This document shows positions 1-27,084 of a stretch of 30,021 nt of DNA, in pieces. Source of the stretch: Ochromonadaceae sp. CCMP2298 (lineage: Eukaryota > Sar > Synurophyceae > Ochromonadales > Ochromonadaceae); the NCBI GenBank assembly GCA_026770595.1, contig MU633679.1:1-30021 (forward strand), in the 5' to 3' direction. Under the pieces are notes generated by a model that made no database searches, had not been told where the DNA came from, and saw nothing but the letters and a program-made list of their open reading frames with translations. The stretch's first letter is position 1; the number at the start of each line of letters is the position of its first letter. The translations under genes were made by a program, and so were the position numbers.

Positions 1-64
1 CTTCCAAAAATTCGCTCAGACAATAGCGAGCCAAATTCAGTGCCCGCAAGCGCTGCTCGTCCAT
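1..64 (-). CDS. Possible 5' end of a minus-strand gene, cut by the window edge
   Basis: On the minus strand an ATG at 64 opens a frame that stays open for 21 codons to the window edge. It begins MDEQRLRALNLARYC, which looks like an amphipathic helical start. The gene would be divergent from CCZ1, with about 700 bp between them. The stretch is too short for a family call, and 21 open codons in GC-rich DNA can occur by chance. It is listed because the left edge would otherwise be unexplained. Confidence 0.3.
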   Translation of the reverse strand, partial: MDEQRLRALNLARYCLSEFLE

Positions 65-765
65 TAGTCCTCAGCTCAGCAGCCTAAAACGATGGTCTAA
101 ATGCAACCGCCACAGAAAATCAGCGAGGGGTGTGGTCGTCGCTGAATATCTTTCGTCGTAGATCTGTGCCCGGCACTGCATGCATTAATGATGTCCGATA
201 GAGATCGCACCACACCTGATAGAGTCGTCCTCGCGCAACACCTAGAAGGAATTCTAGCGCATCCCGGCCACTTTCATACATACACATCGTTCGATCGAGA
301 CGTCGGCGCAACTAGAGAGGCGTCGAGACGTCGAGACGTCCACAATCCGAGAGGCCACCAAGCGAAAAAAGACTGGGAAAACTGGGCCGAGAACCACTCC
401 TTTAGAGGGTTTTGAAACAGACGAGCCCTCAGCTGGAAAAAAAAACGGTTGGCTTGAGAGAGAGGGGAGCTTTGAGGGGGGCAAAAAAAGGCAGGGGAAC
501 TTAAGAGGGGAACTTAGCTACACTGGGGTGTCTGGACATGACAATGACAAAGCCAGATCCCACAAGATCGTATCGTAAAAATGATAAAAAAGACTCTGAT
601 TTAGAGTGGATTTTAGGTGAAGTGAAGAGGAGGAAGATCTTGTGGAGGGGTTGTGTAGAAGATGATCTCTCTGCTTGAAATCCTTCCGGCAGTGCCCAGA
701 GTGACGTGTGGAGTGGCCCTGCGGAGCTCCTGGAGCCCTGGAAACCGCAGCTCGTCCCTCAGGCC
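65..765. other. Intergenic region upstream of CCZ1
   Basis: No convincing gene was found. The region has a short direct repeat of GTCGAGAC near 325-345 and purine-rich stretches near 430-500. ORFs on both strands here are under 80 codons, compositionally poor and unlike any family I know. It probably carries the promoter and 5' leader of CCZ1. A 35-codon upstream ORF lies at 662-769. Confidence 0.5.
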
Positions 766-3700
766 ATGACGTCTGCTGTGCGCTACGCCATCGTGCTGCA
801 CAGGGGACTCGCCTGCAGCGACGAGTCCGCCACGGATGAGGAGCAGGCCGAGAGGGTGCTCTACTTCTACCCAGAGAGTGCGAGCCTGTCGCAGCAGCTG
901 GCCAAGGTCATCGTGCTTGAGAGTCTGATCGACTTCTCCTCTCGCTTCTCGACACAGCCGCTGGACAGCGTAGTCATGCAGAACCACACCTGGGCCTTCA
1001 GCGAATGCGAACCTGGCGTGTGGGTCATCCTGGGGGTCGATGCACAGCCACATGTGTCATCACCGGCCGAGATTCCCGTGGCCCCGGTGCCCCAGAGTCC
1101 CCTGCCCCTGCACTGCAACCAGGCCAGCCCCTTTGCCTTGCAGGCCTCTGCGCAGCACATATACCGCCTGCTCCGCCTCACGCACGGGCCCCTACTCAAG
1201 GCGCTTAGAGGTCCCGCCAAGGTGGGTGTAAAGCAAGGGGGCCAGGAGTGTCGTGGGCAGGAAGCGATCGTGCGGGTGCGGGGGCTGCGCAAGGCTGTGC
1301 GGAAGTTGCGCCTGCGCCTGCGGCAGGAGAGCCAAGACGCAGAGAACCTCCGCAGTAGGCAAGAGATCCTCGCCGCGTACGAGGAGCAGGGAAGTGAGGC
1401 AGTGGCCGAGGAGCATATGGGCATAAGAGACGGGGACAAGACACTGCAGCAGGCAGAAGTGGAGATAGACACGTCCAACCAGGCCATCTCCCATACACTA
1501 CTGCAGCTAGCCGAGGCTCTCAAGGACCCCCACTACCCCCTGCCGCGCCTAAGGGACGCCCTGGCTAGGCATCTGAGGCTGCAAATCAGCTCGGGGCAGT
1601 GGGACGCTCACTGTCTGTTGCAGGGTATGCAGGGGGTGCGTCTGCAGGGGTGGAGCAGCCCCCATCCCGTGCTGAGCGCCGTGCTGGCCCACACAGGTCC
1701 ACAACACGCATCGAGTGGTGGAGGTAGTGGCGGTGACAGCCGCAGCAGTGAGGGTCTGGACAGTATAGGTCTTGGCACACCCCCAGTGTCGATGGCCGTG
1801 GACACTGACCCCTTGGGTACGCCGGGCAGTGGGGAGAGCCAAGATGCGAGTTGCACGAGTGCGGGAACGGGTGGCGGCAGTGGGGGCCTGCCAGCGGGTC
1901 TGCTGCGCTTAAGACGCCTTGTGCTGGATGCTACTGACGAGCTGAGCACAGGTGAATGTCCTATCATTAACCGCACATGGATGGAGATGCGTCCATTGCT
2001 GTCGTTGCCATCTGCCAACTGCCGTCTGTTGTCTGCTGTCTGCCGTATACCATACTCCGTCTGTTGTCTGTTGTCTGCCATCTGCCGTCTGCCCTCCAGC
2101 CCCAAAAACTACCCCCCTAACACACTCACACCCTCCCCCGCACACGCCCACTAGGCTGCGTTATACTGCTGGACGGCTGCGTGGCCTGGAGCGATCTGGA
2201 CGCCGCCAGCACCGCGCTGCTGCAGGAGACGCTGATGCTGCAGGAGGCGAGGGCTGTGCGCGGCGCGGTGACTGCGCTGCTCACCTCCCACAGCCTGGGC
2301 AATGGGACGGGGGCCGAGGTGGAGGTGGGTGATATATAAATATGAATATACGGACATGATATACTTACACGCTGTACAATGTACTTGCTATTTGTGTTGT
2401 GTTATCGCAATCAGCGGGTGCAGGATGCAGAGTGCAGGGTAACGAATGTTTGTCCCCAGTCTAACCCTTTCCCGCCTCTCCTGGTCCCCTGGGAACCCTC
2501 AGGCGTCGGTGCAGCGCTCGCTGAACGCGCTGCTCACTAGTCGCGGCATCGTGTGCGGCGACTGGGAAGTAGTGGACCTCGCGGACGACGGTGCGGGCGG
2601 CGGCGGGGGCAATGGTAGTGGCGGAGGTGGGGGTGGGGGTCGGAGTGACCGAGAGGGCGTGAAGCTCTTCTCCCTCGTGACCAGTGCTAGGGTGGCGGGC
2701 AGGGCGTCTTTGGATGCACTACTGCGCGCCCGGGCAGACACGTCCACAGATGGTGAGCACGTAGAATGCACATTAAATCTTTAATGCCTCCATCATGCCT
2801 ACTGCATACCCCCCTCATACCTCCCTTATACCTCCCTCATAATTCCCTCATATCCCCCACACCTCCCTCTTACCTCCATACCCCCCTCCTGTCCCCTCTC
2901 TCAGTAACGGCAGATAGCTGCGAGGGCATGAGTCGCATTTACTGCCCCCGCATCTACGCACCCGTCCGTACTTCCAGCAGTGGGGGGGGCGTGGCGGTCT
3001 GCATCGGCAGGGCGGTGATCCACCGACACAACCGGGTGATCGTAGTGGTGCTGCTGCCTGACTGGGACAGTGAGGAAGGCAGTGGCAGCAGCAGTGGCGG
3101 CACCAGTGGAGTCGGTGGCAGCAGCAGTGGCGCCAGCGGTGGCACCAGCAGTGGCGTGGGCACAAGCGGAGCACAGGGCGCACATTCACAGGGTCCCTGG
3201 GGACCGCACTTCAAGGTCTCTGCGCTGAGCGAGGTGCTGCAGGAGTACGGAGAGGGTCAGAGCATAGACAGCAACAACAGTAGCAACAATAGCATCAATA
3301 ATAATAACAGCAGCAACAAGGGGGACGAGCCTCTGCGCGCCGCGAGCCAGCAGATCGCCCGCAGGCTCGCGGTTATGAAACCTCAGCAGTTTATAGACTT
3401 CCTCCACACATGCGCTGATGGAAGGGAGGGGGGTGGGGCGCAGTTGGGACAGGCGTGTCTGGTGACCCTCTGTGCCAGTCTGCAGCTGCTGCTGGGTCCT
3501 GAGAGCGCCCGCATCTGCCGCCTGCTGGGGGGCATGGAGCAGGACGGGGGGGGACTGCTGCCGCGGGGGGCGCTGGCGGCCTGGGCTGTGGCGGCGGCGC
3601 AGGTGCAGGCGCAGGCGCAGGTGCAGGCGGCGACACAGGCGCGCGAGGGGGGGTATGGGTACGGCCCGAAGCGTCTGGGGAGTATAGCGAATATTGGGAG

Positions 3701-5054
3701 TATAGGGAATATAGGGAGTATGGGTATGGGTATTGGCGCAGGATCGCAGAGCTATGGGGGGCCCAGGCGCGCTGCCTCCTACAGCAGCACAGGCAGCGGG
3801 GGGGACCTTCCCCTAGACATGGGACCGCTGTCCCTGGACGACAGGTAACCTCTTAACGCGGTGAATCGTGCTGCTCGCGGGAAATCACATTTTAACCCCT
3901 CTCCTCTCCACTTCCTCCCCTCCTCCCCCTCCTCCGTCCTCTCCTCACACAGCCCCGCGCTGTCCTCTCCACTAGCATCCATCGGTGCGCGCATTTCCCA
4001 CGACCTGGGCCTGCCCTCCGTCAGCGCCGGAGCGCCCTTCACCGGAGGCTCGCTAAGCCCCCCCGGACCCAGCCTGCCAGCACGCGCACACTCGTTCCTC
4101 TCCAGCCTCGCCCCACCCACCCATACGCCCCCACCCTCTGGGGCCACCCCCCCGGCGCCCGTGCCAAAGGACTTGTCAGCATCTGCCCGCTCTCTGCGGT
4201 ATATCTATCACAGTCCCGCTGAGCACACCGTGAAGGTATGACTTGGGAGGGATATGGGATATGGGAGGGCAGTGTGCAGTGTGCAGTGGCAGAGCAGTGG
4301 ACTGAATATGACACCTACACAATGATTTTACGCATGAATGCTGACTTACAGGCACCCTAATTCTGACCCCTGACTCCTACTGCCTCCACTCCCTCAGGTG
4401 TACGGAGTGAACCGCGCCGACCTCAGCCTGCTGCTAAGCTGCCCCGCTGCCTTCCACGCCCGCGTACTGGCCCATCTGCAGCCCGCCCCCGCCTCCTCCT
4501 CCGCTGAAGCGAGAGCCACGCCCCAGTCCCGCCGCGCCGCCACCGCCATCTGCCGCACGCTCACGCAGACGCCCACCTCCCTCGTAGACAGCGGCAGCAG
4601 CAGCGGGGGCAGCGGGGGCAGGGGTGCGGCCTCCGTGAATCAGGGCTTTTTCCCCTTCCCCGCCTCGGCCGCGCTGCTGGCTCAGTGCCTGGAGGCCCCC
4701 GTGGTGCGCGCGCTGAACGACGCCTGGGAAAGGCTGCAGCCCCCCAGCAGCCGCGAAGAGAGGGGCAAAACAGGAGGGACAGGGGGGGCGTTTGGCTCCG
4801 AATGGGCCCAGCTCGGGGACCTGGGCGATCTGGAGAATCTGGCAAATCTTGGGAAATTGGGGAACCTGGGACACAGGGCGCCGCGGGAGGTGTGTCTGAG
4901 GGTGGCCACTGCGCAGCGCGGGGGCGTGTGGGTCACGGGGCGGCGTTTGGGGGACAGGTACCTGTACATGGTGGTGGAGAGGTGCGCCACGATGAACGAA
5001 ATGTACGCCACGTTCGAGCACCTCACGGAGCTGCTGCTGTTCCAGCACCCGTGA
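766..5054 (+). CDS. CCZ1: CCZ1 homologue (Mon1-Ccz1 Rab7 exchange factor subunit)
   Basis: CCZ1 pairs with MON1 to load GTP on Rab7/Ypt7 on late endosomes and vacuoles. Proposed exons are 766-1951, 2155-2324, 2503-2752, 2905-3844, 3953-4235 and 4398-5054, all GT-AG and in frame, giving about 1161 residues. The first longin domain is at residues 3-95, with LYFYPESASLSQQLAKV, an FSSRFS stretch and GVWVILGV, as in CCZ1 families. Exon 2 continues it with VILLDGCVAWSDLD. The C-terminal longin part reads GGVWVTGRRLGDRYLYMVVE, very close to plant CCZ1 ends. Between these lie Gly/Ser, Asn/Ser and Ala/Gln low-complexity insertions, making the protein more than twice the usual size of about 480. The start is the ATG at 766; the longer open frame begins at a GTG. 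Exon 4 could also begin at 2914. Confidence 0.82.
1985..2097. repeat. Imperfect TGTCTGC/CATCTGCCGTC repeat inside CCZ1 intron 1
   Basis: The stretch is built of short variants of CTGTTGTCTGC, CTGCCGTC and CCATCTGCC. It lies wholly inside intron 1 (1952-2154) and keeps one frame open by chance, so the exon 1 ORF appears to run through the intron. The acceptor CCCACTAG ends the intron at 2154. Confidence 0.7.
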
Positions 5055-5641
5055 TCGCTTCCCTTAGCCTTACCCTTTGACGCCCAGCCCCAACCCATAA
5101 ACCCACAAACCATCAACCCATCCTCCCATCAACCTATCGTCCCATAAATCCATAAACCCATGATCTCTTACCGATTAGCCATAATACATACTATATACTA
5201 CAGCTCATTGCCTATAATAACATTATAATGTATAAATCAAGCTCCTGCTAATTTCATTTGCACGGTCTCCTGGTCTACCTCCCTGCTCTGGCATCCACGC
5301 AGTCCCTGTCGAAGCAATCCCTATACCCCTTGTACCCAGTACCACATGTACCCCCTTTACACTGTGTGCGCTTCTCCGGTCAGCCGACTATGCACCCACC
5401 CAGTACTAGTGGGGTGTTGCGAGGCGCACCGGAGAGTAGATTCGTCAGCTGATATGTGCTGATGATAGATAACAGATAGCAGATAAGAAACAGCTTGAGA
5501 AGAAAAGTACTCGAAAAGATGCCGCCTCACTTGCAGACCGCAGCTAGCAAAATTTCCTTTGCGATTACTGTCACAGCATGCGGTACTATTGACATCCCCC
5601 CAAACTGGGCATAGAGCATGTCCGCTCCTCCACGTCAGGTA
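5055..5641. other. Convergent intergenic region, no gene seen
   Basis: This lies between the stop of CCZ1 and the stop of the minus-strand ankyrin-like ORF. It is more AT-rich than the genes, with several TATAAT/CATTATAATG and CCCATAAA stretches at 5090-5240 that would suit 3' ends and polyadenylation. Only short ORFs without family resemblance occur. Confidence 0.6.
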
Positions 5642-6541
5642 CTAGGTCTGGCTGAGTAGCCACTGCTCCACCTCCGCAGATCTGCCTGCGTAACTTTGGT
5701 CCATAGCATATAAACAAGCATATATATCCAAAGGGCACGGGGGATTCTGAGCCCGTAGCCACTGCATTGTTTCCAATTGACCTTCAATTGCTGCAAGTAA
5801 GTAAACACCAAAATCCCATGGGCAGGGGGGATTCTGAGCCCGCATCCACTGTAGTACTTCTATGTGTCCGTTTTCTGCTGCATATGAGCTTGTCCTTGTA
5901 TCCCATGGGCATGGAGGATGCTGGGCTCGTAGCCACTGTAGTGCTCCTAACTGTCCGGCCCTAGCTGCCTCCAAGCAAGCATCTGCATTCCATGGACAGG
6001 GAGGGTGCTGCGCTCGTAGCCACTGCAACACCTCAATTTGGCCATTACGTGCTGCATATGAGCAAGCTCGTGCACTCCATGGGAAGGGAGGATCCTGAGA
6101 CCGCATCCACTGCAGCACCTCTATTTGGCCATCTCTTGCAGCAGATGCAAAAATCCATTCATCCCATGGGCACGGAGGACTCTGAGCCCGCATCCACTGT
6201 AGCGCTTCCAACTGTCCGTATTCAGCTGCTAACGTGCAAGCCGCTTCACTCCATGGGCAGGGAGGATCCTGAGCCCGAAGCCACTGCAGCATCTCCAGAT
6301 GGCCTCTTCTTGCGGCATATGTGCAAGCCATTTCGTTCCATGGGCATGGAGGATGCTGGGCTCGTAGCCACTGTAGTGCTCCTAACTGTCCGGCCCTAGC
6401 TGCCTCCAACAAGCATCTGCATTCCATGGACAGGGGGTGGTGAGGGGGAGGGAGGAGAAATGGTGATGGGTGCTTGGGTTTCGAACTGCGGACAGTGAGA
6501 AAAGCGTGGACACCAATTGTCGGGAAAGTGATATTTCCCAT
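5642..6541 (-). CDS. Ankyrin-like repeat protein (PPCPWD type), possibly truncated
   Basis: This single-exon ORF of 299 codons starts at an ATG at 6541. After about 38 unique residues it consists of nine 29-residue units of the form AAxxGQLExLQWLRAQxPPCPW. The LEALQWLRAQ helices and the conserved Ala-Ala pair identify an ankyrin-like solenoid, expected to bind proteins. The last unit is degenerate and ends EVEQWLLSQT, a cap similar to that of the 13072-15726 gene. No F-box-like or other N-terminal domain precedes the repeats. The first unit is an almost exact copy of the sixth, with one base missing, so the repeat frame is shifted and is joined to unrelated upstream sequence. It could be a young short gene, a 5'-damaged pseudogene, or a gene with an unseen first exon. 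No donor or acceptor convinced me. Confidence 0.6.
   Translation of the reverse strand: MGNITFPTIGVHAFLTVRSSKPKHPSPFLLPPPHHPLSMECRCLLEAARAGQLGALQWLRAQHPPCPWNEMACTYAARRGHLEMLQWLRAQDPPCPWSEAACTLAAEYGQLEALQWMRAQSPPCPWDEWIFASAARDGQIEVLQWMRSQDPPFPWSARACSYAARNGQIEVLQWLRAQHPPCPWNADACLEAARAGQLGALQWLRAQHPPCPWDTRTSSYAAENGHIEVLQWMRAQNPPCPWDFGVYLLAAIEGQLETMQWLRAQNPPCPLDIYACLYAMDQSYAGRSAEVEQWLLSQT
5903..6435 (-). repeat. Two nearly identical ~98-bp copies 435 bp apart inside the ankyrin-like ORF
   Basis: Copy A (5903-6001) and copy B (6338-6435) match at every base except one G missing from B within the CTCCAA(G)CAAGC segment. Their separation of 435 bp is exactly five 87-bp repeat units. Similarity stops at the 5' end (gene sense) of copy B, next to the non-repeat N-terminal sequence. 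Confidence 0.85.
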
Positions 6542-6916
6542 CCAATGAATGAGTTTGTATCAATTCTTCCCAACAAGATGAGTAATGTCTGTGGTTTTTC
6601 AACCGTCGATTGTTTCTCAGACAGTTATTTTTGGCGCGCATGATTGATCGAGCAGGGTCTTGACAGCACTTGTACTGCTGTTGTACTGATCACTGCCACT
6701 CGCAGGCTGTTTGATCGGCAGTGGTGTGCCTTCGCAGTTCGCACGATCGTGGAACGCAGAGCGCAGAGCAAGTTCGAGACTCGCAGCTGTCTACCCAGGA
6801 ACAGGCTCGCAGCGCAGGCGTTTCTAGCTGATCCCACCCCAGTTGGGGCACTGCTCTTGGGTCAATCGCATCCTCAATCGTATCCGCATCCTCAGTAGGA
6901 TCAAGCGTCACCAAGC
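6542..6916. other. Divergent intergenic region
   Basis: This lies between the minus-strand ankyrin-like ORF and the plus-strand EGF-like gene and probably holds both promoters. A minus-strand ATG at 6641 opens a frame that reaches the repeat region in a different frame and stops at 6396. I saw no RNA gene or clear motif. Confidence 0.5.
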
Positions 6917-9900
6917 ATGTCCCTCAGGCTGGCCTTCCTCGTGGTGGGGCTGCGATGGCTGGGCATGGCCGAACACGCCCCCTCCACGCCCCCCACCACC
7001 ATATACGATTTCCCCTTCAGCGCGCGCTCAGCCATATGCCCCAATAAATGCTCGGGCCATGGGGTGTGCGCGTACAACGAGACTCTGACTTGCGATTGCT
7101 TCCCTGGGTACACTGGACTGGACTGCTCTCTGAGGGTGTGTCCTTCCTCTAGAGCGTGGGTGGCGGTGCCCAGCGCTAACGACACGGCGCACCCGGCGTT
7201 CACTGAGTGCTCCAACATGGTGAGAGGTGTATAGGCGAAGAGATAGAGAGATAGAGAGACAGAGAGATAGAGAGGCAGAGTTGCGGAGAGGCAAAGAGGT
7301 GGAGAGATGGAGATGGAGCAGTGGAGAGGGGGAGGCGTGGAGAGGGGGAGGGGGAGAGGGGGAGCAGTGGACAGGCATACAGCGCTTAGTGTGCAGTATG
7401 CAGTATGCAGTATGCAGTGTGGAGTCTGCATGTGCTGTAGTCCAGGGCAAGTCCCCCCTTCTCCCTTTTTGTATGTTGGCATACATGCACTTGTTCGAAT
7501 TCACCCCCAATGCACTAATACACTTGCACTCATGTTCTCTCTCCACCCTACCTGCCGATAAATCTACACCCACACTAACACCCACACTTACACCCACACT
7601 TACACCCACACCTACACCCACACCTTCTACACCCACACTTACACCCACACCTACACCTACACCTACACCTATACCCCCACCTACACCCACACCCACACCT
7701 ATAGGGCTCCTGCGACCGCACCACGGGGCAGTGCCAGTGCAGGAGCGGCTTCGACGGACCCGCCTGCGATAAAAGTAAGTTTTCTGAATGTCCAAACTGG
7801 GACCTACATCGTCCCGAAACTGGGACCTGTCTTCTAGAAAGACCTTGTTCCTCTCGCGAATGCCGAACCTGTCCCTTGCTGTTCCCTCTCCCTCACTGTC
7901 CTCTCTTTGTCTCTACTCCTCCCCACCTCCACACCTCCCTTCTCCCCACGTCCCTACTCCCCACAAACCACACACCCCTCCTTCTCGCTCGCTACACACA
8001 CCTCCCTGCACACCTCACACCTCACAACTCCCCAAACCCCACACCTCGCGCCTCCAGTCATCTGCCCCATCGGCACCCTGACCTCCTCCATCCCCGAGGG
8101 CACCAACGTAACCGCCGTCTGCTCCGGTAACGGTCGCTGCATGTCGCTACGGGAGGTGACGAACTTCCAGACCTACTTCAAGTACGTGGACTACACACAC
8201 TACGGCGGATGGGACGCAGACAAGATCTACGGATGCTACTGCGAGGCTGGGTGGGAGGGCGTGGCGTGCGAGAAGGTACTGCTGCCTCTGCCACTGCCAT
8301 TGCCTCTGCTGCTGCCTACAGATTGTTATAAAACCCCCTCATTTAATCTCATCATCCCTATCACTCCCACTACCCACCACCATCCCCCAGCGCTCCTGCC
8401 CCGTGGGCCCCGACCCCACCCGCGCAGTAAATCACGAGGTGCAGCTCATCGACTGCCGCTGCCACGGGACCACCTGCCAGGGCGGGCTGCACATCTCCTT
8501 CCGCAACCAGCAGACGCCCTTCATCCCATACGATGCCTCGGAAGAGCTGGTCGCATTCCGCATACGGGTGAGGGGGGGTACTCAGATGCTTCGATGATTA
8601 TTCTCAGATTTCGGATGCTCAGATGCTCATATACTTTATATGCTTAGATGCTTAGATGCTCAGTTATTCGCATCTAGGTTGTTACGCCGTCATACCATCA
8701 CGCCGCCACATCGCCATGCCATCAGATCCTAACTCGTCCTTGTACCCTTTTCTCCCCCCTTCTCCCCCTCTCCCACTTTTCCTCCCCAACCGTATCAGCA
8801 ATTCACGGAGATGGAGAGCGTGAGCGTGCGTCTGGTGGAGGGGGACAAGCTGTGCTCCGAACAGGGATCCGTCACCAGGGTACGCACCGAACTGCACTGT
8901 ACTGTACTACACTGCACTGTACGCCTATCTCACGCACCCCTCTCGTGCACCTCCCCATCGCACCCCTGCTGCCTGCACTCCTCCTCACCCCCCCCCCCCC
9001 CCCCCCCCCCACCCACAACCCCGCCACACACACAAATAACCCCCCCAGATCGAGATCACCCTGCCACACGGCCCGCAACCCGACTTCTCCGTGGTGGCAG
9101 TAGCGGGACTGAAGAGCCACCCCGCAAAAAAGATCCAGGTCATCGCGGGGGGGAAACACTCGCAGTTAAACACGCTGATCTTCTCTCAACGCGGCGCCAT
9201 TTCGTCTGTCGAGTGCTCCGACAGGGGTAGGTGCAACTACCTCACTGGCGTGTGCAGGTGCTACGACGGGTTTCGCAGCAGCGACGGGCTGGGGGAGATC
9301 GGTTCACGGGGGGACTGCGGGTATAGGTACCAAGACCACCTCAACTACACCTCGAATGGCATCCAGATCACCACCAACTGCCCCTTCCTCTTCGGCGCCA
9401 TCTGCTCGGGCAACGGCACCTGCAACGAGGGCAAGGGCACATGCACGTGCAATGCGGGATACGGTAAGCGACTGGGTTTTGTTGGAATTTAAAGATTTGC
9501 TGAGTGTGCTTGCTGGAGATGCCGAGTGTGCGAGTATGCAGTGCACCCGCTTGCGCCTGCGTGTAAGTGTACATTGCCATTCCTTGAGGAATTCTAACCA
9601 TGGCTTGTCTCCTCTCTCCGCATCTCCTCATGTCGTCTTGTCACCATGTCTTCATCCTTGTGCTCTTTGCTCTGCGCTCTATACTCTCTATTCTCTATTC
9701 TCTATTCTCTGCTCTAATCTCTATGCGCTCTGTTCGATCTGCGTAATCTATTATCTGCTCTGTGCGCAGGGGGTTCTGACTGCTCCCAGCTGAGCTGCGG
9801 CCTGGCGGCTGCCTGGTTCGGCAACGTGGACGACCAGCACGCAGCACAGACAGAGTGCGGGGGCGTGGGGGAGTGCGACGGCGACACCGGGAGGTGCAAG

Positions 9901-13071: not shown

Positions 13072-15726
13072 CTAGTCGTCCTCGAAGTCCTCCTCGAATT
13101 CTTCACTGAAGTCCATCTCCTCGTCCTCGTCGTCGTATGGCTCAGGCTCAGGCGCATCGTTGTCCCTCAGCCACTCCTCTATCTCGCCAAACCCGTTCTC
13201 CATGGCACTGTCCAGCGCTCCCTCGTCCCAGGGGCAGGGGGGGTCCTGAGCCCTCAGCCACATTAGCATACGCAGACTTTCAGACTCGACGGCCATTTCG
13301 CAGACATAAGCGTCCCAGGGACAGGGGGGGCTCTGAGCCCTCAGCCACTTCAAGACTTTCAGATGACCTCCAGTCGCGGCCTCCCCACTAGCCTCTGCAT
13401 CCCAAGGGCAGGGAGGGTTCTGACCCCGCAGCCACTTGAGGACACGCCAATGCCCACCCCTGGCAGCACCAGAGCAAGCGTATGCATCCCAGGGACACGG
13501 AGGGTGCTGGGCTCTCATCCATTGCAAAGTCTCCAGACGGCCGTTCCGCGCTGCCAAGTGGCAAGTCCAGCTGGCCCAGTGACAGGGAGGGTCCTGGGCC
13601 CTCAGCCACTGGAGAACGTCCACACGGCCACCCTTGGCAGCATGGTTGGAAGCGCGTCCGTCCCAAGGGCAGGGAGGGTTCTGAGCACGTAGCCACTGCA
13701 ATGCCTCCAGATGGCCATTCTCGGCTGCTACGTTACAAGCATCTGCGTCCCATGGGCACGGGGGGGACTGAGCTCTCAGCCACTGCAGAACCTCCAGCTG
13801 GCCACTCTCAGCTGCGGATATGCAAGCGCCTGCGTTCCATGGGCAGGGGGGGTCCTGAGCCCTGATCCACTGCAGCACATTGAAATACCCACCCATGGCA
13901 GCAGCAGCAGAAGTAGCTGAACTCCAAGGGCAGGGAGGGTTATGAGCTCGTAGCCACTGCAATGCCTCCAGATGGCCATTCTCAGCAGCAGCCGTACAAG
14001 CTGGCTCGATCCCAGGGACCCAGGGACACGGGGGGGTTTGAGCCCGCAACCATTGCAGTATACTCAAGTGGCCGCCCTTCGCAGCACCCGCGTAGGTATC
14101 GCCAGCCCAGGGACAGGGAGGGTTCTGACTGCGCAGCCACTGCAAGATGTGCACGTGACCGCCTGTCGCAGCAGCAGCACACGTCCCCTCGCTCCAGGAG
14201 CAGCCCCGCGCACGCAGCCATAGCAGTACCTCCAGATGCCCATGCTCGGCTGCGCTGTTGCAGGCACTGCTCCTCACGATGCATTGAGGATCCCGTGCTC
14301 GCAGCCACTCCAGCACATGCAGATGCCCGCCTCTGGCAGCATAGAGGCAGATATCATACACCCTAGGGCACTTAGGACGTTGGGCGTACATCCACTGCAA
14401 CGACCCCAGGTGCCCGCCCTCGGCCGCGCCGCGCGTACCGTCAGGTCCCCAGTGAACCGCAGGGGTGCGGGATCGCAGCCATTGCAGCACGTGCAGATGA
14501 CCCCCTCCCGCCGCAGCATCACACAGAGCACCACCCCAGAAGCCGCCTTTAGACTTGCCCAAAAACTGCAGCATCCCCAGGTGGCCGCCGCGTGCCCCCT
14601 TGATCGCTACCCCCTTCCCACGCGGCATACCAAGCTGTCGCCGCGCCCAGACGTACAGCTTAACAGGGGTCAGAAAGTCGTCAACCCTGAGCAGTGCACG
14701 AGGCACCGGCGCAAGCACATCCCGGCACCACCGCGACACGAGTCTGAGCTGGGGGTCGCACGCGGTGCCTAGGAACTCCCTCGTCCTCTCTAGCACGAAG
14801 TCCACGCACAGCAGAGAGTTGACGCCATCCCCCGTGCGAGAAATATGGTACAGATCGGAGGCAGGCTTGAGGCCGTAGTATCTGACCGTCAAATCTAGGG
14901 TGTTGGTGCTGACACTGCCGATGTCGATGTAGTATGACAGGAGGGCACCCGAAGCTATTGTTGAGACGGGGAGGAACTCGGGTTTGTAATCCGCAGGTGC
15001 CCGATCCGTATACTGTAGATGGGATAAAGATGAGGATTAAAGGATGATTGGGGTTTGGGGTTAATGGATGATCAGGATTTACGGATGATAAGGATTTATG
15101 GATGGTTATTTAATGGGAGTATTGGGAGTTACCTTCATGTGCAAAGAGCACCAGCGGCTTGCTGGCTTGACAGCCCCCTCTACCTCCCGCGTGTTCAGTG
15201 TAGCAAGAAACGAAGTGACCGACAGAATGAGGTCTGTCATCTGCTCCTTCACCGCATCCTTCGAGATGAGAGCGTCCACCACCACCTCCGATCCATCACT
15301 ATAGGAGAACTCGTACTCGTATGTCTCTAGCAGTTCTTCTTTGCCGGAAATAGGGTGCTTGGTGTAGATGGCGAACACGAGGACAGAGAGGAACTCATCT
15401 TCTAGAGCCTTGAAAACCCCTTCCTCTACCCGCTCCCTAAAGGTATATGCAGCAGCAGCGCTGTTACCTGTCTTCGCAACGGGTTGATAGATGTCGAATG
15501 ACAGGAAATCGTTTGTGTTGAAGCAGCTCATGGGAAAGATTTCGCGACTGAAGCAAATCGACGAAATCGATGCGCGAACCTGAGGGAAATTAAAGGCATT
15601 GGTTAGAGGTGCGTATGAATGCATCGATGAGAAAGAAATAGGGCTCACCATATGCTTCATTAGCACCACGGCGTCGTATTTGGAAATGGCCGCGTCCTCG
15701 CTCTCGTCAGCTTGCTTGGTCGACAT
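13072..15726 (-). CDS. HORMA-domain (Hop1/ASY1-type) protein fused to 17 ankyrin-like repeats
   Basis: Exons on the minus strand are 15726-15649, 15579-15133 and 15012-13072, with GT-AG ends and phase 0 throughout, giving 821 residues. Residues 13-216 match the Hop1/HORMAD fold: DAVVLMKHMVRASISS, EIFPMSCF, EGVFKALEDEFLSVLVFAIY, YEYEFSYSDGSEV, YTDRAPADYKPEF and IDIGSVSTNTLDLTVRYY. Hop1 proteins organise meiotic chromosome axes by closing around peptide motifs. The frame then continues without intron or stop through an F-box-like segment (about 238-275, LRLVSRWCRDVLAPVP) into 17 repeats of the LEVLQWLRAQNPPCPWD type and an acidic tail. There is no ATG between the HORMA end and about position 14630, already inside the repeat-like region, so a separate ankyrin gene would lose its N-terminal part. 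A fusion is the simplest reading. Two merged genes with an unseen promoter or exon remain possible. A start at 15798 would need a TTG, so the ATG at 15726 was chosen. Confidence 0.7.
13200..14660 (-). repeat. Tandem 87-bp coding repeat (29-residue ankyrin-like units)
   Basis: Seventeen units are present, most 87 bp long. The 3' units are close to the consensus (PPCPWD); the first four or five are diverged (for example PKCPRVYD and PQCIVRSS). One unit carries a short VPGIEP insertion. The last is a degenerate cap ending EIEEWLRDN. Confidence 0.85.
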
Positions 15727-16166
15727 GATGAGCAGAGCACCTGCGGCAAATGAACTCGAAATAAATTCTGCGATAGGGCTGGCGGTGACGAGTGACAATC
15801 GAGTCCAGTCGGTTTATGCGATCAGGAGCAAGCTCGGTATGTGATTATCTCCCTTTTTTCAAAACGCAGAAATTCCGAAGTTCTGGATCTTTGGGGGAAT
15901 ATCTCCTACCTGCTCCCGAGTTGGTATCTTTGTGTCCAGGTGTTGGTCGTTAATGTTTTAAGGAAGCTCCTGGTACTGTGGCTTGTACAGAAGAATACAG
16001 TATTGACTGAGAGATGGAGGGGCAGAGAGCCACACAGGAGTATCTGCGCTATACACCTTTCGCGCAATGGCACCTCCTCCTTACTTGGCAGCTGCCTCCA
16101 CTCTCGTCCGAGGTGAATACCCTCTCTATCACACCGCGCCTCCAACCATTTATCTACCCCCCCCCC
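15727..16166. other. Intergenic region upstream of the HORMA-ankyrin gene
   Basis: It lies between the 3' end of GPALPP1 and the start of the HORMA gene; both genes are on the minus strand. It is presumed to hold the HORMA promoter. ORFs here are short and on the face of it meaningless. A C run (about 16158-16167) directly abuts the GPALPP1 stop. Confidence 0.5.
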
Positions 16167-24884: not shown

Positions 24885-27084
24885 ATGAGTGCAAACTCGC
24901 ACCAGAGTCCGACCAAACAAATTCGCACCATGGCGTCCGCCCATCCTGGTATGTTTACTGCGCGCTTTACCAATTTCTCTGCCGCAATTAATTGAACCCA
25001 CTGCTTTTTCTGTTCCCAAGCCCCAGGCACTTACGAAGACCCCGCGACAATGCTGCAGTGGGCAGCGTCCCCCCTCTGTGGGTTTGACTACTACAGCCCC
25101 GAAGGCAGCAATCTTTCATTCACCATGACCTCGCCGCCGCCTTGCGTGTTTACCCACGGGACGGCGGAAGTCGTGGCCCACCAGTATTCCGCGGAGCACT
25201 TGAACTCCTCCTTCTCTCCCTCGATCTTCTCCCCCACCGAAAAGACCGGAATCAGACTCCCCAAGAAGAGAGACGTCTACCGCGACCCCGCCCTGATGGG
25301 GAACGGCATCGCGGGCATGGCGGCCAGTGCTGCTCTGTCGCCCGTCAGTAGACCGGAGAGTAGGAACAGCGTGGACATGCAAGCCCTAGCCCTGTAAGTG
25401 GGACAGAGGACAGTGACAATACCGCTTCATTGTTGTACTCTAACCTTCCCTTCCCTCTTTCATTATCGTACTATTACCTTTCCCTTCTAGGCTCGAGTCT
25501 CCTCACATCGGACTGTGGGGGCGCGTGCAAGACGCCCTGGGTGTGAGCAGTATGGGCATGGGCAGTAGCATGCACATGGGCAGTAGTAGCAACTGCAGCA
25601 GCAGTTCCAGCGCCGGCAAGAGGACATCTCCCGTGTTCCACGCGCTCATCCCTGAGAATTATGTTCACACACGGATGCAGATAGACAGCACCGAGAGTGC
25701 AGAGCCCGCTCCTCAGCCCAAGGGCAGCGCCCGGAAGTCTAAGGCTAAGAAGAGTCCTGGAGACAGCGCGTTGAAGGCGAAGAAAACTCCCGAGGCACGC
25801 GAGGCGGAACCCGATATGGAGGAGGCGGAGGAGGAGCGAGGAACAGCCAAATCACGCGCATCCAAGAAGAAAAAGGCCCCCTATGTGTCCCCCGATAGCT
25901 CGCTAGATACAGACAGCAGTGCCAGTATGGTCAGCGCTGACGATGTGTTGGGCAGTCCGGATGGTGCGGTGGAGGTGGTGGTGGGCGCTATCCGCAGCAG
26001 TAAGTTCGGCGTGACGTCGGCCACCCAGGCCACACCCTCGGCCCGGGATGTGCGGGTGACGACCCTGATATCTACCGGGGTTAGGGCGAAGACCTTGCCG
26101 CTCGAGACGTACGACCTAGCGCAGCACTATCCCAAGGGCAAGGCGCCCAGGACCAGCACGCCGCGCACGCCGGGTACCACCGTCTGCAACTGCAAGAAGT
26201 CCAAGTGCCTCAAATTGTACTGCGACTGCTTCGCCGTGCTAAACTACTGCGACGCCAGCTGCAACTGCCACGACTGCTGCAACAGCACGGAGCGCGAGTC
26301 CGTGCGCCAGGAGGCCATTCGGGCCACCAAGGACCGCAACGCCTTCGCCTTCCAGACCAAGATCAACGAGAAGGAGCAGCACTCTACGGGCTGCCACTGC
26401 AAGAACTCCGCGTGTTTGAAGAAATACTGCGAGTGCTTCACGGGCGCAGCTTTCTGCGGCACCAACTGCAAGTGCCAAGCCTGCTTGAACTTCAGCGGCT
26501 CCGAGGACCTAGCCAAGGCACGCTCCAACAACCGCGAGGACGGCTCTAGCCGGAAAAGGAAAGAGAGCCCCTCCAGCGTGGCCTTCGTGGACAGCGTGGA
26601 GAAGGGTGGGGAGGAGATGGATGTGTCGAGATCGGACAGTGTGGAGAGTTCCATGGAGGACGATTATCCAAAGGTCAAGACGGAGGGCGCGATCACGCCT
26701 CTGAGCGCGGTGCACAACGGCGTGCTGGTCAGCTCCTACTCCTCCGGCGAGTCCCCCATGGACGGACAAGCCGCAAAGCGCCACAAAGGCGATAACACGC
26801 CTCTGGAGACGCGGCGGCGCACCAAGAAGTCCCCGCCCTCTGCAGCCTCAACCTCTGCGGCCTCTGCGAGCGTGGACTCCGCGGACAAGTCGAAGTCCAA
26901 GAAGCAGGTGAAGTTCAACGTTCACCCCCTCGTCTACCCCTTCTTCGGGCCCAACCTGCCCGAGGTGACAAAGGTCGTGGCGCTCAAGGTGCTGGAGTGC
27001 TGCGCGGGCAAGGACATCTACAGCATGTCGCAGCTGAACTCCGACTGGAACACCGCGGTGCATGACGACGCCATATGGGACTGA
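24885..27084 (+). CDS. Tesmin/TSO1/LIN54-type CXC DNA-binding protein with C-terminal F-box-like motif
   Basis: Exons 24885-24948, 25027-25393 and 25491-27084 give 674 residues. Two cysteine-rich CXC motifs are seen: CNCKKSKCLKLYCDCF (about residues 376-415) and CHCKNSACLKKYCECF (about 445-480), joined by a basic/polar linker with RATKDRNAFAFQTKI. This pair is the CRC domain, which binds CHR-like TTYGAA promoter elements in cell-cycle and developmental regulators such as LIN54 and TSO1. Lys/Ser/Glu-rich disordered segments flank it, with a possible nuclear signal at SSRKRKES. The last 45 residues (EVTKVVALKVLECC, then KDIYSMSQLNSDWNTAVHDD, ending AIWD) resemble an F-box helix bundle. The exon 2 acceptor may be at 25020 or 25026, six bases apart and frame neutral. 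The start at 24885 gives MSANSHQSPTKQIR; an ATG at 24930 is a second choice. The target genes are unknown. Confidence 0.82.

Follow-up and report, generated by a model that had tools for sequence, protein, structure and literature searches.

Published descriptions (PMC12678776, PMC12365614) give meiotic HORMADs a HORMA domain, a chromatin-binding region that varies, and closure motifs towards the C-terminus. The chromatin-binding region, a PHD and/or winged helix, occurs in many HORMADs though not in every one; according to these papers mammals and nematodes lack it, so it is not a defining feature of the family. As far as the available text of PMC12678776 describes it, ecHOP1 of Ectocarpus, a brown alga and thus a stramenopile, combines an N-terminal Hop1-type HORMA domain with a DNA-binding winged helix, to which isoform 1 adds two cis closure motifs. 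The window analysed here, a 30,021-nucleotide stretch of DNA, encodes a protein that, similar to ecHOP1, has an N-terminal Hop1-type HORMA domain but that differs in carrying an ankyrin arm, in having no Pfam PHD or winged-helix match and in lacking the two brown-algal closure-motif patterns searched. One of its stand-alone HORMA relatives, P0002, likewise comes from a stramenopile; with P0002 as its best stand-alone relative, the gene probably belongs to a eukaryotic microbe allied to the golden algae.

Ankyrin repeats also take part in meiotic recombination in mammals, where the ankyrin-repeat protein ANKRD31 is a partner of REC114 in the control of meiotic breaks (PMC11511760). The likeness to the window protein is by analogy only, and no HORMA domain is mentioned for ANKRD31 in the available part of that paper. 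The word ‘ankyrin’ is absent from PMC12678776 and PMC12365614 and occurs once in PMC11511760, where it concerns a protein other than the one described here. No description of a HORMA–ankyrin fusion was found in the literature on HORMA or HORMAD with ankyrin, on HORMA architecture and on fusions, within a search that covered titles and the starts of abstracts, with most subscription papers outside it.

Gene structure and transcript of the HORMA–ankyrin protein

The HORMA–ankyrin gene lies on the minus strand and consists of three exons, 15726–15649, 15579–15133 and 15012–13072, which encode an 821-residue model. Exon 1 (15649–15726) encodes residues 1–26, starting with an ATG at 15726–15724 and a MSTKQ sequence shared with stand-alone HORMA relatives. 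Exon 2 (15133–15579) encodes residues 27–175 and contains the HORMA core, on the basis of the Pfam match and of identity to the transcript open reading frame P0001. Introns 1 (15580–15648, 69 bases) and 2 (15013–15132, 120 bases) are both GT..AG introns in phase 0, are both missing in P0001, and leave the three exons joined in frame. Exon 3 (13072–15012) encodes residues 176–821 and the stop. The open reading frame 15036–13072 has no interruption and, together with the phase-0 splices, bears out the initial annotation of exon 3 (15012–13075 plus the stop) as one open frame of 646 codons.

Starting from its 5′ end, exon 3 encodes the C-terminal part of the HORMA domain (approximately residues 176–232, 14842–15012), a linker predicted to be helical (approximately residues 240–303, 14629–14820), an ankyrin-type repeat arm (approximately residues 305–795, 13153–14625) and a C-terminal tail (approximately residues 796–821, 13075–13152) that is strongly acidic: the final 40 residues of the model contain 22 D or E and a single K or R. 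The junction between HORMA domain and linker falls at about residues 232–241 in the alignment with the stand-alone relatives P0002 and P0003. In-frame ATGs are found at 15138, in exon 2, and next at 14628, which is residue 304, just before the first repeat unit. The original statement that no ATG separates the HORMA domain from the repeats therefore holds up to the end of the segment then called F-box-like, but not at residue 304. Pfam searches of the 821-residue model, which had been put forward as a check, find a HORMA domain at residues 21–189 with 80 bits against a cut-off of 24 (E 2.2e-22), and ankyrin repeats through the Ank_4 model with 103.4 bits against a cut-off of 22.7 (E 4.6e-30).

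P0001 is an MMETSP transcript open reading frame of 721 amino acids, marked complete, in a cluster of five members, and carries precomputed HORMA and ankyrin domains. Residues 1–416 of the model are identical in P0001, a length that takes in the two splices, the end of the HORMA domain, the junction, the linker and the first repeats. The HORMA–ankyrin fusion is real and transcribed: since genome and transcript agree over these 416 residues, the join, and with it the proposal that HORMA reads in frame into ankyrin-like repeats, is confirmed by two data sets, as opposed to the later repeat array, which is not so confirmed. P0001 also contradicts an arrangement in which transcripts end after the HORMA part or start separately before 14892, although shorter isoforms may exist beside it. 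Past residue 416 (P0001 residues 417–721, compared with window positions 14289–13072), P0001 is a mosaic of differing stretches and of identical ones at its residues 466–530 and 612–706, with 13 clear repeat units against 16 in the window model; its last 15 residues are unlike those of the window protein and match the paralogue L003 exactly. These downstream differences may reflect a strain variant, rapid turnover of the array, or in part a chimera or misassembly of short reads.

Could the locus instead yield two products, a HORMA protein that ends early and an ankyrin protein that starts within exon 3, for example at 14628? The in-frame ATG at that position, the HORMA relatives that stand alone and the linker, which forms the start of the other ankyrin family members, fit such an arrangement, but no stop lies between the two parts, a single open reading frame marked complete holds both, and a start at 14628 would drop the linker that other members keep, making two products very improbable. 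An assembly artefact, with a HORMA gene and an ankyrin gene brought together in a chimeric contig, has a nearly negligible probability. Redundant contigs do exist, and positions 1–9324 of the window are 100% identical to part of contig C473, but the transcript, from a separate data set, shows the same join to the residue, and in the paralogue L022 the linker is likewise accompanied by DNA that resembles both HORMA ends.

When residues 1–240 were searched against 5.77 billion proteins (4361 candidates), P0001 was the sole match at E ≤ 0.001, and residues 214–330 likewise matched nothing except P0001 among 334 candidates; both searches covered lengths of about 452–1436 residues at word-based sensitivity, and the fusion may occur in further organisms beyond P0001 and the window. 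Within the genome, L034 (contig C638) is left out as a second fusion: stops interrupt its match to residues 11–188 of exon 3, and its HORMA-side part is 23–27% identical (E 0.022–0.67).

The HORMA domain and its stand-alone relatives

A single-sequence search of the PDB at E ≤ 0.1 gave four matches, namely HORMAD1 (9.5e-7), one ‘HORMA domain-containing protein’ and HIM-3 twice. With a three-row family profile at E ≤ 1, the matches comprise six distinct sequences, HORMAD1, HIM-3 (two), HTP-1, HTP-2 and the same ‘HORMA domain-containing protein’, none of which is Mad2 or Rev7 by name. These profile matches assign the HORMA part to the meiotic Hop1/HORMAD type, which mammalian HORMAD1 and nematode HIM-3, HTP-1 and HTP-2 have in common with the window protein and which the initial annotation had also proposed. 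None of those four proteins is known to have ankyrin repeats. The profile match to HORMAD1 (PDB 8j69) has an E of 2.6e-20, and its alignment extends through the last strand of the domain, the place of GSVSTNTLDLTVRYY in the window protein. The domain end first placed at LDLTVRYY is therefore right.

Outside the window, a search with residues 1–302 gave two matches among 3051 candidates. P0002, from Ochromonadaceae sp. CCMP2298 (Ochromonadales, stramenopiles), has 316 amino acids and is 46% identical over 79% of the 302-residue query, and P0003, a JGI protein named ‘meiosis-specific protein HOP1’, has 343 amino acids and is 33% identical over 74% of that query. Both have the MSTKQ start and a similar HORMA domain end and score higher in Pfam HORMA than the window protein (133.7 and 127.3 versus 80 bits). 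Unlike the window protein, they consist of HORMA alone, with no ankyrin match, and their tails after the HORMA domain show no resemblance to its linker in the alignment. As these HORMA relatives stand alone, the fusion looks derived, judging by the sequences compared. Relatives in which the two parts are separate, named at the outset as an argument against a fusion, thus exist on the HORMA side, and they indicate that the fusion is derived rather than absent here. A Pfam PHD or winged-helix match at E ≤ 0.001 was not found in the 821-residue model, and two brown-algal closure-motif patterns were found neither in it nor in P0001, P0002 or P0003. No NCBIfam model matched P0001 or P0002, viral contigs contained no relative of P0001, and genome contigs contained none of P0002.

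The assembly (11.25 Mb in 724 contigs) is partial and partly redundant, and in it a single HORMA locus was found, even at E ≤ 10, where introns and gaps may hide others. HOP1 has been reported in the transcriptomes of 6 of 18 chrysophyte strains, according to the available part of PMC6339481. Exons of a RAD51/DMC1-type recombinase are located at C275:2316–3451 (L042, L043), with one TGA in a third piece. Although these are fragments and all score under the curated cut-offs, the DMC1 model outscores the RAD51 model on them (229.2 versus 217.4 and 75.0 versus 58.4 bits), which suggests that meiotic recombination genes are present. Searches of the partial assembly found neither Spo11-type sequences (PF04406, TP6A_N) nor TRIP13_N; they were positive in 4 of 14 and 0 of 14 controls, respectively.

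The ankyrin arm and its local family

The arm has a repeat period of 29 residues and contains 16 units with a clear core, spaced by 27–32 residues, and a 17th, degenerate last unit that was recognised by eye. The 17 repeats first counted are reached only with that last unit, and the motif PPCPWD, by which they had been named, occurs exactly 6 times rather than 17; PPCPW occurs 10 times and PPC[PH]W 11 times. An AlphaFold model of P0001 shows alternating helices in the predicted repeats, and in residues 401–710 most ten-residue blocks have a pLDDT of 77–92, with dips to 55–70. On the HORMA side, for which the alignment had 3 HORMA rows only, 23 of 24 ten-residue blocks are below 60. A first 15-row alignment, which had aligned the HORMA relatives to ankyrin columns, was left out of folding. 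Among the 50 Foldseek rows listed for the P0001 model, 47 are of ankyrin or DARPin type and 3 are PPR10, with a query TM-score of at most 0.25.

A search of the genome with exon 3 yields 96 matching stretches, several to a locus and counting exon 3 itself. Thirty-one loci were distinguished, and in all except L011 and L020 the match extends to the linker side (29 loci). Comparison of ATGs and 5′ flanks used 18 loci, leaving out L001 and L002 (the window’s own), L009 (identical to L010), L012 and L013 (whose matches are confined to the repeats) and six loci that overlap others; L010 was also left out of the linker alignment, the F-box search, the last-strand comparison and the tree. Of these 18 paralogue loci, 17 have an in-frame ATG at the linker start or farther upstream; the remaining one, L006, has a methionine at that place. 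By these genome-wide matches and linker-start ATGs, the arm is a member of a large linker-plus-ankyrin family that is widespread in this genome. Members such as L003, L022 and L014 have the linker and PPCPWD repeats in common with the window protein; as opposed to it, the paralogues examined begin at or upstream of the linker and have no HORMA domain. The paralogue closest to the arm is L003, which is 71% identical. A further PPCPWD ankyrin gene of the same family lies within the window itself, at 5630–6559 on the minus strand, with one TAG inside the longer match, 5630–6403.

History and proposed role of the fusion

The HORMA-less paralogue L022 (contig C272) has, in this order, a HORMA-like 5′ flank and start codon, a stretch like the HORMA last strand, and the linker, with no domain between. 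Compared with the 5′ flank (15727–15801, minus strand) and start codon of the HORMA gene, the L022 DNA scores 50, a value that none of 2000 shuffles reached (maximum 34), and the other 17 loci score 14–23. Its match to the HORMA last strand scores 27, again reached by no shuffle (0 of 1000, maximum 22), with the other 16 loci at 10–16. As a peptide the short N-terminus of L022 is weaker, its score against P0001, P0002 and P0003 being reached in 11, 10 and 106 of 1000 shuffles, respectively. Because remnants of both HORMA ends are recognisable in it, L022 is probably a HORMA-less descendant of the fusion. The opposite reading, that LDLTVRYYGL is an ankyrin-family sequence, given that L003 and L022 carry similar ones, was rejected; the stand-alone relatives and HORMAD1 share that end and L022 has HORMA-like start DNA, so a HORMA remnant is more likely.

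L003 (contig C274) has an extension in common with L022 (score 48, 0 of 2000 shuffles), and the case for a remnant in L003 rests on this similarity. Its upstream DNA does not match the window HORMA end significantly (184 of 1000 shuffles), nor does it match the window 5′ flank (1504 of 2000), and its peptide is reached by 122, 270 and 518 of 1000 shuffles against P0001, P0002 and P0003. In a tree of 18 linkers the window pairs with L003 at 95/88, and L022 joins this pair at 85/70, support that falls below the mark of the tool. Pairwise dN/dS values for the arm are 0.45 for window and L003, 0.38 for window and L022, and 0.34 for L003 and L022. The simplest account of the sequences would be that the fusion came first, followed by at least one copy without the HORMA part.

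We consider it probable that the product of this transcribed Hop1/HORMAD fusion, in which the tail has been replaced by a linker–ankyrin body, docks on axes and binds a partner, and that L022 is a later HORMA-less copy. As sequence and transcript show, the body of a local linker-plus-ankyrin family member stands, in a single exon, where the stand-alone relatives have their tail. The HORMA domain would close on a short closure motif in a Red1-, ASY3- or SYCP2-like core protein of the axis, and this closure would dock the protein on meiotic chromosome axes. The ankyrin solenoid would then bind a partner and hold it at the axis, and the arm would stand in for the chromatin-binding region or the cis closure motif of other Hop1 proteins. 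The protein may be a new axis or checkpoint protein, as first proposed, its arm serving to bind other proteins. In a variant that appears improbable to us, it is a HORMAD with a fast-turning arm, in which repeat number and content vary between strains (821 versus 721 residues), the axis partner evolves quickly and is perhaps ubiquitinated via the linker, and the fusion has donated HORMA-less ankyrin genes.

The fusion could also be real and its arm carry the function while the HORMA domain has ceased to serve as a meiotic axis module, having been co-opted or heading for loss as in L022. The persistence of a likely HORMA-less descendant, the constraint on the arm and the lower Pfam score of the window HORMA domain (80 bits against 133.7 and 127.3 in the stand-alone relatives) favour this reading. 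We nevertheless hold it to be unlikely, if worth keeping in view, as the HORMA frame is intact within an expressed open reading frame and searches of the partial assembly yielded no second HORMA match, so that no other Hop1 is seen that could replace it. A different function would follow if the linker, which the initial annotation called F-box-like, were a true F-box: the fusion would be a HORMA-tethered SCF ubiquitin-ligase receptor whose ankyrin arm chooses axis substrates. The linker is indeed conserved, with a mean column identity of 52% and 13 invariant columns in an alignment of 18 rows, it is predicted to be helical in a 95-residue model whose mean pLDDT of 55.5 is weak, and too weak for a structure search, and one of the 18 family rows matches the Pfam F-box, at E 0.11. 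The other 17 rows, the window’s included, have no F-box match at E ≤ 10, the window linker matches no Pfam family, and none of the 8 full-length paralogues searched gives an F-box match. The F-box identity of the linker is not established, and the SCF reading is decidedly doubtful.

Read as a Hop1/HORMAD fusion with a partner-binding arm, the gene is a transcript-supported case in which the C-terminal part of a HORMAD is replaced by a long arm, presumably for protein binding, and would serve as a natural test of which C-terminal functions Hop1 needs. The series from unfused relatives through the fusion to a likely HORMA-less descendant would give an ordered gain and loss of domains in a core meiotic gene of a non-model lineage.

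Beyond the HORMA–ankyrin gene, the window contains a gene with a Tesmin/TSO1-like CXC domain at 25444–27084 on the plus strand (Pfam TCR, E 1.6e-20). Between a DUF3752 open reading frame and the HORMA gene, positions 15922–16137 are 77% identical to 1112–1327 of contig C274 (L032), on the contig of L003 and in the opposite sense to its ankyrin gene. The identity of positions 1–9324 to C473 covers C473:2592–11915, with window positions 287–381 also equal to C473:1–95, and would be explained either by redundant contigs that were left unmerged or by a duplication of very recent date. In a similar manner, L009 (contig C25) and L010 (contig C693) are identical over 3822 bases.
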